NCBI GenBank assembly: GCA_031285945.1
Contig: JAITVF010000088.1
Location: 1 to 13,664 of the forward strand
Source of the DNA: Oscillospiraceae bacterium
Lineage (GTDB): Bacteria > Bacillota > Clostridia > Oscillospirales > Ruminococcaceae
Direction of reading: 5' to 3'
DNA: 13,664 nucleotides
Part shown: in pieces, positions 9,948 through 13,178 of the stretch
Numbering within the stretch: position 1 is the first letter of the stretch
Layout of the letters: each line of letters begins with the position of its first letter
The notes under the pieces: generated by a model
What the model saw: only the letters and a program-made list of their open reading frames with translations
Databases searched by the model: none
Told to the model about the DNA's origin: nothing
Position numbers and translations under genes: made by a program

Positions 9948-11147
9948 ATGGCCAAGCAAAAATTTGAGCGCAATAAACCCCACGTAAACATCGGAACCAT
10001 CGGCCACGTCGACCATGGTAAGACCACGCTGACGGCCGCCATCACTAAGACCCTCGGCATGAAGGGCAGCGCGGAGTTTGTTGCGTACGATATGATCGAC
10101 AAGGCTCCCGAGGAGCGCGAGCGCGGCATTACCATCAACACCTCTCACGTTGAGTACGAGACCGAGAACCGCCACTACGCCCACGTTGACTGCCCCGGAC
10201 ACGCCGACTATGTCAAGAACATGATCACCGGCGCCGCTCAGATGGACGGAGCCATTCTGGTTGTTTCCGCTGCTGACGGCCCTATGCCCCAGACCCGCGA
10301 GCACATCCTTCTTTCCCGTCAGGTGGGCGTGCCTTATATAGTGGTTTTCATGAACAAGGCCGATCAGGTCGACGATCCCGAGCTTATAGAGCTTGTCGAG
10401 ATGGAAATCCGCGAGCTCCTTTCTGAGTATGAGTTCCCCGGCGACGATACCCCGATTGTTATAGGCAGCGCCCTCAAGGCCCTTGAGTCGGACGAAGGAG
10501 TGGACGCTCCCGAGTTTGAGGCTATTCTCAAGCTGATGGACGCCGTCGACTCTTATATTCCTACCCCCGAGCGCAAATCCGACCTGCCTTTTCTTATGCC
10601 TGTCGAGGACGTTTTCACCATCACAGGCCGCGGCACCGTGGCCACCGGCAGAGTCGAGCGCGGCCGTATTACCACCGGTGAGGAAGTTGAGCTGCTGGGC
10701 ATGACCGAGGAGCGCCGCAAGACAGTTGTAACCGGCGTTGAAATGTTCCGCAAGATTCTCGACTACGCAGAGGCCGGCGATAACATCGGCGCTCTTCTTC
10801 GTGGCGTACAGCGCACCGAGATTCAGCGCGGCCAGGTTCTCGCAAAGCCCGGCTCCATTCATCCCCTCGTAGACTTCCGCGGCCAGGTTTACGTTCTTAA
10901 GCAGTCGGAGGGCGGCCGTCACACCCCCTTCTTTAACAATTACAGACCTCAGTTTTACTTCCGCACCACCGACGTGACCGGCGTAATTACCTTGCCCGAG
11001 GGCGTTGAGATGTGCATGCCCGGCGACAACGTCGAGATGGACGTTAAGCTCATCACCCCCATCGCCATTGAGGAAGGACTCCGCTTTGCTATCCGCGAGG
11101 GCGGCCGTACCGTCGGCTCCGGCGTCGTTATCAAGACTACTAAATAA
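9948..11147 (+). CDS. tuf: Elongation factor Tu
   Basis: GTPase that carries aminoacyl-tRNA to the ribosomal A site. It has 399 residues, the normal length. GTPase motifs: GHVDHGKT at 19-26, RGITI at 59-63, DCPGH at 81-85 with the catalytic His85, NKAD at 136-139 and GSALKALE near 172-179. The beta-barrel domains II and III follow, with the [18 protein letters not shown] block at about 218-235 and the C-terminal [12 protein letters not shown]. The start is ATG at 9948 with SD AGGGAGG (9931-9937). The stop TAA (11145-11147) is followed by a second in-frame TAA, and then by a strong intrinsic terminator. Only one tuf copy is in the window; a second copy elsewhere cannot be excluded. Identification is certain. 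Confidence 0.99.
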
Positions 11148-11200: not shown

Positions 11201-11271
11201 TGTCCAATGCCATTTTATCGGGCCTGGCCCTGATTTTGCGACAAAAACGCCTTGCTCCTTTCTCCTATAAT
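11201..11271 (+). promoter_or_regulatory. Possible Spo0A-controlled promoter of the spoIIGA-sigE operon
   Basis: A perfect -10 hexamer TATAAT (11266-11271) has no -35 at the usual distance. Upstream are two one-mismatch copies of the Spo0A box TGTCGAA: TGTCCAA on the + strand (11201-11207) and TGTCGCA on the - strand (11237-11243), the latter about 35-41 nt before the predicted start near 11278. In B. subtilis the spoIIG promoter also lacks a properly spaced -35 and is switched on by phosphorylated Spo0A bound near and upstream of that position. The hexamers are seen; their use is inferred, and one-mismatch 7-mers are common enough that chance is possible. GGGCCTGGCCC (11220-11230) is a short palindrome of unknown meaning in between. 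Confidence 0.38.
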
Positions 11272-11297
11272 GGAAGAACACGGCGCAAGGGGATGTC

Positions 11298-11454
11298 ATA
11301 CCACTTCGCAATCAAAATCATTTCAGCCTTGCGGTCTTTTTTCCGTCCTGCTGCGTTGTCCTCCTCAGTGGGCGTCAGCCCACCGTCGTCGCCTGTCTTG
11401 CAGGGCGAAAAAATCCTCGCAAGTCTTGAAACGATTTTAATCGCAGAGTAGTAT
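11298..11454. repeat. 157-nt palindromic element, MITE-like or intergenic repeat
   Basis: The sequence folds back on one axis over its whole length. The outer arms 11298-11325 and 11427-11454 align without gaps, with 5 mismatches and one G-T pair in 28. CTTGCG (11328-11333) pairs with CGCAAG (11418-11423). The run of six T (11337-11342) pairs with six A (11408-11413), and the GTCCTGC segment ending at 11351 pairs with GCAGGGC from 11400. At the tip, GTGGGC (11368-11373) and GCCCAC (11378-11383) close a GTCA loop. Frames on both strands stay open across it but resemble no known protein. Long single-axis palindromes of this size are typical of ERIC-like intergenic repeats and of miniature transposable elements moved by a transposase elsewhere. 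No clear target-site duplication is seen. It lies between the tuf terminator and spoIIGA and would be in the leader of a transcript starting near 11278. Palindrome certain, class inferred. Confidence 0.7.
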
Positions 11455-11481
11455 CAGTTGCGTAGGCGGGGAGGCTAAGGG

Positions 11482-12366
11482 GTGGATACTGTGGTCTATG
11501 TCGACGTTCTGCTCCTCCTCAACTATGTGGTGACGGTTCTGCTGCTAGAGGCCTCCGCCAGGCTTCTCGGCTGCTCGCCGCGGCGGATTAGGCTTGTCTT
11601 TGCGTCGCTGCTGGGTGCGTTTTCATCTCTGGTAATCTTTTTGCCTCAAGGCGGTTTTTTCTCAACCATACTGACCAAGGCGGCGATATCGGCGGCAATC
11701 GTACTCGTCTCCTTTGCGGGCAGGGGAATTGCGTTTACCCTTAAGGCGTGGGGGATGTTCTTTGCGGTAAGCTTTTTCTTCGCCGGGGTAATGCTGGGTA
11801 TCTGGATGATCTTTTCGCCGGGGGGAATGCTTTACCATAACGGCGTAGTATATTATCACCTCAACCCTATGACACTTCTTGCCTGCACGGTTGCGGCCTA
11901 TATTCTGTTGAGCCTATTCAGGAGATTTTCCCGGGGGAGCAGGGTTCCGGGAATGTGCTGCGACGCTACGCTATTCCTGGGCGAGAAAAAGGTTACGCTC
12001 AAAGCCCTTATAGACTCGGGCAACAGCTTGTATGAGCCTTTCAGCGGAACGCCGGTCATAGTAGCTAATCTGGAATCCGTCCGCCCAATCTTGCCGGGGC
12101 CTCTTTTTCGGGCGCTTGAAAAGGGCGACTGGGAAGAGGCCGCGAAAAAAGCGGGTACGCGTGTGCGGCTTATCCCCTATAAGGCGGTGGGAGGCGAGGG
12201 AGCGCTGCCGTCCATACGGCTGGATTGTCTTGAGACGGAGCGCGATGGAGCAAAACGCAGGGTGGAGCGGGTGTATCTTGCGGTATCGGGCAGGGATATA
12301 GGCACGGAGGGCTGCGAAGTCATACTCAGCCCCGATCTCGCGGGAAGACCTGTCAGAGTGGAATGA
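11482..12366 (+). CDS. spoIIGA: Sporulation sigma-E factor-processing peptidase SpoIIGA
   Basis: Membrane aspartic protease in the sporulation septum that removes the pro-sequence of sigma-E in the mother cell when SpoIIR signals from the forespore. It has 294 residues, near the usual 300. Five hydrophobic segments are visible at about 5-25, 36-54, 60-80, 87-111 and 125-146. The cytoplasmic protease half follows, with the DSGN motif at residues 178-181 (Asp178 catalytic) and the family's LIPYKAVGG block near 230-238. The start is GTG at 11482 with SD GGGGAGG (11468-11474) 7 nt upstream; another in-frame GTG nine nt later (11491) is a possible alternative. The stop overlaps an in-frame ATG of the sigE frame (ATGA, 12363-12366). 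It sits upstream of its substrate gene, the usual spoIIG arrangement. Confidence 0.93.
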
Positions 12367-12446
12367 TAGCGGCGTTTATACTGCTGTACGGCAGAAGAGC
12401 GGCGATCGCGGTCATATTAATGAGCAGTATAAGAATGCTCAGAAGC

Positions 12447-12452
12447 GGAGGG
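12447..12452 (+). promoter_or_regulatory. Ribosome binding site deciding the sigE start
   Basis: GGAGGG, followed by TG, lies 9 nt before ATG 12462. It favours that start over the upstream ATGs at 12363 and 12420, which lack a comparable SD. Confidence 0.65.
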
Positions 12453-12461
12453 TGCGGACAG

Positions 12462-13178
12462 ATGATGCAGGTCCTTTGGGTGTGGGTGTGTGAGCAGTGG
12501 CTTAAGTTCTATTACCGGTTCGCGAGGACAAAGATCTACTACATTAACGGGCCTGATACCCTTCCGCCGCCACTGACAAGGGAGGAGGAAGAGAGCGTAT
12601 TCGCGAGGCTTTCAGAGGAAACTGAAAGCGCCAGGCAGGAGCTTATAACTCACAACCTGCGCCTGGTGGTATACATAGCCCGTAAGTTTGAGTCCTCCGG
12701 AATAGGGGTGGAGGATCTCATATCGATAGGCACCATAGGGCTCATAAAGGCCGTAAACACCTTTTGCCCCGAGCGGGGGATAAAGCTTGCCACCTACGCC
12801 TCGCGCTGCATAGAGAACGAGATTCTTATGCATATGCGAAAATGTCAGGGACACAAGCAGGAGATTTCTATTGACGAGCCCCTCAACATTGACTGGGACG
12901 GTAATGAGCTGCTGCTGTCAGATATTCTGGGAACCGATTCAGACGCTATTAACAGGCCTATAGAGCAGGCAATAGAGCGTACCATCCTGCTCGAAACGGT
13001 AGAGCGCCTGGGTGAGCGGGAGCGCAGGATCATGCAGCTTCGATTCGGCCTTCAGGACGGCTCGGAGAGAACCCAAAAGGAGGTGGCCGAGATAATAGGC
13101 ATCTCCCAATCCTACATATCCCGCCTCGAAAAGCGAATTGTAAAGCGGCTCAAAAAAGAGCTTGAAAGAATATCGTGA
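12462..13178 (+). CDS. sigE: RNA polymerase sporulation sigma factor, pro-sigma-E
   Basis: Early mother-cell sigma factor of sporulation, made as an inactive membrane-bound precursor. From ATG 12462 it has 238 residues, against 239 in B. subtilis. Residues 1-26 are a hydrophobic, basic pro-sequence ([20 protein letters not shown] and on), and the KIYYING site at 24-30 lines up with the B. subtilis VYYIGG processing site. Sigma region 2 spans about 61-130, with [31 protein letters not shown] and [15 protein letters not shown], almost identical to known sigma-[18 protein letters not shown] follows at 138-154, and region 4 with its helix-turn-helix ([22 protein letters not shown]) spans about 170-236. 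The frame stays open back to ATG 12363, which overlaps the spoIIGA stop and would give 271 residues. I prefer 12462 because of the SD and the family length. Unlike many relatives, no sigG follows. Confidence 0.95.

Follow-up and report, generated by a model that had tools for sequence, protein, structure and literature searches.

Bacterial MITEs are usually viewed as deletion derivatives of insertion sequences (IS) without a selected interior. For the IS5 family, the published accounts give IS427-group elements as 832-865 bp long with mostly 2-bp duplications (PMC3281130), and name a three-nucleotide insertion site as a common feature of the IS1031 group (PMC2516522). The intergenic repeats RU-1 and RU-2 are given as 127 bp and 168 bp (PMC2759123). 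Here we analysed a window of 13,664 nucleotides (the whole stretch of Oscillospiraceae DNA under study, to which all plain coordinates refer) that carries a palindrome at 11298-11454. We consider it quite probable that this palindrome is a non-autonomous MITE-like transposable element, that it would be mobilised in trans by an IS5-type transposase, and that the fold of its core has been under selection in the wider family.

Folded as RNA, 11298-11454 reaches -55.7 kcal/mol against a shuffle mean of -33.04 (sd 3.3; z -6.87), a value equalled or bettered in none of 200 shuffles, which bears out the sequence-only reading of a 157-nt palindrome on a single axis. That reading also had the ATAC/GTAT ends and the GTCA-capped GC stem right, and its boundaries agree with the longer copies found by blastn in the same genome, which start at 11298 and stop at 11454; a few copies extend 2-3 bases further. 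On the strength of the fold and of 37 own-genome matches with these ends, the whole element is placed at 11298-11454, on neither strand in particular. Sequence and flank comparison give it target duplications TCA (T-N-A), likewise unstranded, at 11296-11298 on the left and 11454-11456 on the right, and once the outer A and T are assigned to the duplicated TCA the element proper is 11299-11453. The left terminal inverted repeat, TACCACTTCGCAATCAAAATCA (11299-11320, plus strand), exceeds the 3-mismatch limit of our arm pattern and was recognised in the arm-end comparison; the right one (11432-11453, minus strand) was found with the pattern itself (11433-11454, one mismatch).

The stretch had been taken as noncoding, which is likely right, as no frame stays open across five full-length copies. 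Among the 30 frames of these copies, two contain no stop; one belongs to the window copy and the other, on a different strand, to L005. The longest frame in the element has 52 codons, and there is no transposase gene inside. A peptide-coding core, first suggested by a three-base period, was rejected because none of the frames is kept open in five sister copies; the period arises because the core carries one Watson-Crick pair every third base.

Mobility is best seen in the window's own assembly (1,556,874 bases in 224 contigs, 76.61% complete). The BLASTN count proposed earlier gave the 37 matches mentioned above, 13 of them covering more than half of the element, so this is not a single-copy sequence, and the 22-base arm pattern occurs 75 times with up to 3 mismatches (backward control, 0). 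Assemblies break at the element, with four core copies running into contig ends, and the true copy number is therefore probably higher. In 93 of 95 arm ends the second base outward from the A of ATACTA is a T; the base between the two varies, and there is little conservation beyond this T-N-A position. The two T-N-A sides are identical in 20 of 38 paired elements of this genome (permutation mean 11.05, p 0.0009) and not identical in 18, where three of the 38 pairs are doubtful (the 203-nt pair of L019, the second pair of L062, and L110); identical sides were found in 20 of 26 ATACTA-type pairs from other genomes (permutation mean 8.55; 0 of 10,000 permutations as high). The target duplication, read from the flanks of inserted copies, is thus a 3-bp T-N-A, and in the window it is TCA on both sides. 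Many copies, inverted ends, target duplications and absence from the other spoIIGA loci tested together uphold the proposal of a MITE or mobile repeat. A comparison with 72,556 plasmid records gave no match that would indicate plasmid spread.

The ATACTA ends of this genome also frame other interiors, of about 99-111 nt with a GC hairpin, of 125 nt with the core partly lost, of 61-69 nt and of 32-34 nt. Since the same ends surround several interiors, it is the ends and not the interior that define the mobile family. One second interior of about 103 nt holds a perfect GC hairpin (GCTTCCCCCGCC...GGCGGGGGAAGC) and is found, for example, at L058:1420-1522, L071:1419-1522 and L003:350-452; in L062 an element of this type is nested inside a remnant of the other type. 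Two further sites, L048:795-828 and L064:1131-1164, are 34-bp perfect palindromes made up entirely of the two ends, in which changes in one half are compensated in the other, as with CCACG/CGTGG in L064.

A different picture emerges from the middle of the element. A search of 61 genomes matched the window's own genome and four relatives (G001, G009, G010, G044), and these four match only in the middle part, their arms differing in sequence and still pairing. A degenerate core pattern, which fixed most letters of the first ladder strand described below and left its positions S1 and S2 free, found at least 119 stretches in GTDB species genomes and one viral contig. Among the 80 matches listed, nearly all are from Oscillospiraceae, Ruminococcus, Oscillibacter or Clostridia, and one is from Alistipes. 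The latter copy (L194:6225-6256) has TAGACC ends and lies on a 1.49-Mb contig titled Alistipes (Bacteroidota); it may reflect transfer, a mislabelled bin or a misassembly. The viral copy (L246:6786-6817), of the CTAG type, is in the IMG/VR contig IMGVR_UViG_3300035326_000454. Covariance model R1 at E 1e-4 detected the core in 40 of the 246 genomes taken from the class and in 14 of the 299 sampled across the phylum, both totals including the window's own genome; most genomes were without it by this model (206 of 246 and 285 of 299).

Grouping the 102 full-length elements on their first 24 bases gives 31 clusters, which by eye make about ten distinct end types, several clusters being one end type in another register. 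Their end-to-end length is mostly 156-161 nt across end types (exceptions 33, 64, 145 and 223), with 163-165 nt in Oscillibacter sp. 1-3 (G061), so lengths are alike although the arm sequences are unrelated. Target flanks follow the end type: T-N-A for ATACTA ends and CTAG for the TAGTGC type, where the CTAGTG rows were picked with a pattern already requiring CTAG with one mismatch. Around TAGAGC/TATAGC ends, read by eye, a pyrimidine precedes TA in 26 of 26 cases and a purine follows it in 24 of 26. Copy number can be high, as in Oscillibacter sp. 1-3, with 294 arm matches (control 3), or some 150 copies by halving. Core pairs stand side by side on opposite strands in three genomes (G121, G092, G327), where L302-L305 (G121, G092) and the G327 matches are elements some 250 nt long that combine TACCATCACTTGACAA-type ends with two cores on opposite strands. 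An apical module is thus common to elements with unrelated arms and different target flanks.

This module consists of an outer stem, a loop CAAGGC/AACGC, a ladder or plain helix, a loop GCAG/CAAG and a GC hairpin. The ladder is a series of isolated Watson-Crick pairs separated by tandem G-A mismatches (5'-GA/3'-AG steps), and its purine-rich strand, the minus strand of the window, reads GCAAGGC-S1-GA-S2-GAC, then the hairpin, then RAGGA-S3-GA-S4-AACGC. In 105 rows, which represent 60 distinct cores with related copies included and were chosen with one further regex that the window copy itself fails, S1:S4 is Watson-Crick in 101 (G-C 59, A-T 23, C-G 15, T-A 4; the rest A-C 3 and G-T 1) and S2:S3 in 102 (G-C 57, C-G 44, A-T 1; the rest G-T 3). 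The alignment A1 (40 of 41 references, L241 left out, a diversity subset of the 102 full-length elements with six degenerate ones excluded) has 89.4% of its cells paired and a covariation of 0.464, compared with 0.165 when shuffled and at most 0.118 when slid. Twelve of its pairs changed on both sides, a number unremarkable by itself (59 of 500 shuffles reach 12), and RNAalifold puts the ladder pairs in place unaided. By pair counts, by the A1 score and by RNAalifold, the core therefore carries covariation beyond palindromy.

Cores outside this set extend the picture. In Oscillibacter sp. 1-3 and in G239 Watson-Crick steps replace the G-A steps while the flanking loops are kept, and seven other-family cores outside A1, their letters read by eye, retain both ladder pairs; in this comparison G144 (L306-L310) was not clearly readable and L313 was left unscored. 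L318-L319 have a plain helix in place of the ladder, and L312 and L321 show no core by eye. No Rfam family passed the gathering threshold, or E<=1 at the core: there was no match in the window and none at E<=0.5 in eleven loci, and at E<=1 six loci gave four weak microRNA matches, all in L031 and away from the core. No paper on this core family was found among open-licence PMC papers at the level of titles and abstracts.

In the window the core lies on the minus strand, where R1 matches 11326-11424 with 80.8 bits, the tenth best of 16 matches in the genome. Its first ladder strand is 11384-11401, read from the sequence, followed by the apical GC hairpin GTGGGCTGACGCCCAC at 11368-11383, taken from the RNA fold, and by the second ladder strand TGAGGAGGACAACGCAGC at 11350-11367, assigned from family-wide pairing counts and covariation. 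The copy has 6 private substitutions relative to eight sister copies, the other four full-length copies having 5-7, and overall it is no more decayed than they are. Three of the six fall in the first ladder strand, and one of these breaks S1:S4 by making it A-C.

Mismatches in the paired arms differ between the strands. Within 1-14 nt of the core the purine strand has 126 G-T against 22 A-C mismatches, and by cluster 21 of 24 show a G-T excess, one an A-C excess and two a tie (binomial 1.1e-5). The outer arms (28-54 nt) show 190 against 61, with 19 clusters for G-T, four for A-C and one tie (binomial 0.0026), while the zone of 15-27 nt is opposite in sign (26 against 52; 5 clusters against 10). 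Eight elements were excluded from these counts, leaving 24 of the 31 clusters, which are not fully independent of each other. Because a double-stranded palindrome has no preferred strand, the G-T excess points to folding of one strand, and it seems that selection acts on the fold of one strand, whether in RNA or in single-stranded DNA; for the G-T part, mutation biased towards one strand is a possible alternative.

These data also bear on the simplest competing explanation, that of an ordinary IS-derived foldback MITE in which the cores resemble each other by descent or transfer, the arms are kept paired by arm correction and no fold is selected. Palindromes can be homogenised by template switching, which could account for the pairing, and within the genome the arms do change in step (CCGGG/CCCGG in L019, and the L064 change given above). 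However, single paired positions covary between conserved G-A mismatches, and correction of whole tracts would remove those mismatches, so the covariation is hard to explain without selection on the fold. The exchange of G-A ladders for Watson-Crick helices with unchanged loops in Oscillibacter sp. 1-3 and G239, and the asymmetry of mismatches between the strands, speak in the same direction, and we regard an unselected foldback as improbable.

If a selected core within a MITE-like element is accepted, it would be natural to ask whom the core serves. By a simple ORF heuristic, 77 core copies lie between tandem genes in 35 cases, convergent genes in 18 and divergent genes in 12; three are possibly inside a gene, nine are without a gene on each side, and four overlap a long ORF. 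The purine strand runs with the tandem genes in 14 of the 35 cases and against them in 21, and the lack of a clear orientation bias argues against a cis-regulatory role. In one complete genome (G183) the 11 core matches are mixed across the replication strands by eye, assuming the origin at base 1. Since most copies lie between genes and have no evident orientation preference, the likeliest beneficiary of the module is the element that carries it, and our best guess is that the module acts on that element's own spread or stability and not on a neighbouring gene. An RNA or single-stranded form might bind a host or element factor, or might limit harm. A bolder extension, which we put forward as speculative and rather unlikely, is that the core forms a selfish module of folded RNA or single-stranded DNA with a SINE-like logic, repeatedly packaged between different IS-type ends across Clostridia and promoting the spread of its carriers, perhaps by binding a host ribonucleoprotein or ribosome-associated factor near nascent transposase.

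The window copy has landed in a sporulation operon leader. It lies 3' of a tuf-like ORF (9948-11147) and 5' of spoIIGA (11482-12366, plus strand; PF03419, E 1.4e-60), beyond which is a sigma-70-type gene (12363-13178; PF04542 and PF04545 profile matches). Comparison of spoIIG leaders places the native -10 box TATAAT at 11266-11271 (plus strand), and the sequence offers GGGGAGG at 11468-11474 (plus strand) as the likely spoIIGA ribosome-binding site. The insertion point falls between the two, a position that supports the long hairpin proposed for the spoIIGA leader. Upstream of the native promoter, TGCGACAAA at 11237-11245 (plus strand) resembles a Spo0A box, and similar motifs occur in same-genus leaders. 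Five of these leaders (L076-L080) have GCGACAA or CCGACA together with TATAAT, and in none of the five does a palindrome of this kind follow the TATAAT. One of them, L077 (G009), has a palindrome relic ending in TTGATTGACTATA on the 5' side of the spoIIG promoter, perhaps another insertion near spoIIG, where model R1 gives no match. Twelve spoIIGA loci were examined out of 27 genomes with a spoIIGA match; R1 finds the core at one, the window's own, and not at the other 11. The choice posed earlier between a mobile repeat and a conserved structured RNA divides by level: the family speaks for both, and at this site nothing shows conservation of the element.

Two effects on the operon may be considered. 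As a portable promoter, the right end of the element would provide TTGAAA-17-TAGTAT (11426-11454, plus strand), directed towards spoIIGA, and thus Spo0A-independent transcription. The motif was found once against 0.2 (sd 0.5) expected, and some IS5-family elements are described with outward promoters (PMC3281130). The match is weak, at 9 of 12 consensus positions, and its -10 overlaps the inverted repeat, which mobility would conserve anyway, leaving a promoter role very improbable. Still harder to credit is that the spoIIG operon has here taken over the element as its leader RNA or attenuator. The site between -10 box and ribosome-binding site and the strong fold of the transcribed strand can be cited in favour; the element is missing at the other 11 spoIIGA loci tested, the selected strand of the motif is antisense at spoIIGA, and three private changes in the core strand, with the broken S1:S4 pair, leave co-option unsupported. 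At this site, the window copy is probably neutral or a mild modifier of the spoIIGA leader.

To return to the MITE-like reading, such an element would depend for its mobility on a transposase supplied in trans, which is likely to be an IS5-family enzyme. A partner was identified in Oscillibacter sp. 1-3, where an 851-bp element runs from TAGG to CCTA with ends TTAGGTCTTGTTTGAAAAATA and TTAGGGCATGTTTGAAAAATA. Two overlapping frames in it encode a transposase, whose second part reaches 141.3 bits against NF033580 (IS5 family, with a cut-off of 110). In that genome the ends of the MITE, TAGGCC[T/A]TGTTTGAAAAA, match those of this 851-bp element. A search with its protein matched three of 19 genomes (G000, G061, G062), all carriers, and of five IS-sized arm-pair intervals checked by ORF list, four were without a transposase by eye and the fifth (L341) is the IS5 partner. 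In the window's genome the IS5 copy survives as a remnant whose end is of the TAAGCC type and not ATACTA, and no partner with the window's ATACTA ends was found in that 76.61%-complete genome. From these sequence comparisons, an IS5-type transposase is likely for the window's element too. An IS630 partner was rejected: PF13358 (DDE_3) matches 4 of the 10 carriers and none of the 8 non-carriers (a non-carrier having no R1 match at E 1e-4 under strict filters), but the numbers are small and no DDE_3 match has element ends on both sides. High copy number, an imperfect hairpin and selection of the fold on one strand might suggest a REP- or IS200-type hairpin, which a Y1 (HUH) transposase would move in single-stranded form. 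This is scarcely believable given the target duplications; nor is there a link to Y1 (PF01797), found in 5 of the 10 carriers and in 4 of the 8 non-carriers, and element ends do not bracket any of the Y1 loci fetched.

What matters here is that elements with unrelated ends carry the same folded module, which compensatory changes preserve and in which one strand seems to be under selection, and that a cultured gut bacterium, Oscillibacter sp. 1-3, carries about 150 copies. If confirmed, this would add to the Clostridia a family of structured nucleic acids that is not yet listed, and MITEs would have a passenger that is itself under selection.

Set beside known systems, the element resembles each in part. 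IStrons also join a mobile element to a folded RNA, as described in PMC4227781; the present element has no internal transposase gene, and Rfam shows neither a group I intron nor any other family at its core. The palindromic candidate structured RNAs from human microbiomes are likewise palindromic and intergenic, and our core may or may not be among their 250 palindromic candidates (PMC8040213). REP sequences and REPINs with RAYT share the high copy number and the conserved stem mismatches, whereas our element is about 157-165 nt long against 20-40 for REP (as given in PMC3733652), makes target duplications and has no linked Y1 partner. ERIC/IRU, RUP and BOX are mobile intergenic palindromes of 100-170 bp as well, but they belong to another lineage, our element has a covarying core, and it shows no similarity to E. 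coli records; the earlier description as ERIC-like fails here, with no match in 20,395 of them in distant mode. The IS5-mobilised MITEs (IS427/IS1031 groups) are also short, with no gene of their own, inverted ends and 2-3 bp duplications, and in Oscillibacter sp. 1-3 the ends match an 851-bp IS5 element. They differ in that no partner was found in the window's genome and that there is here no obvious IS deletion derivative, the MITE of Oscillibacter sp. 1-3 sharing only its ends with the IS, and in that a covarying core is common here to elements with unrelated ends.
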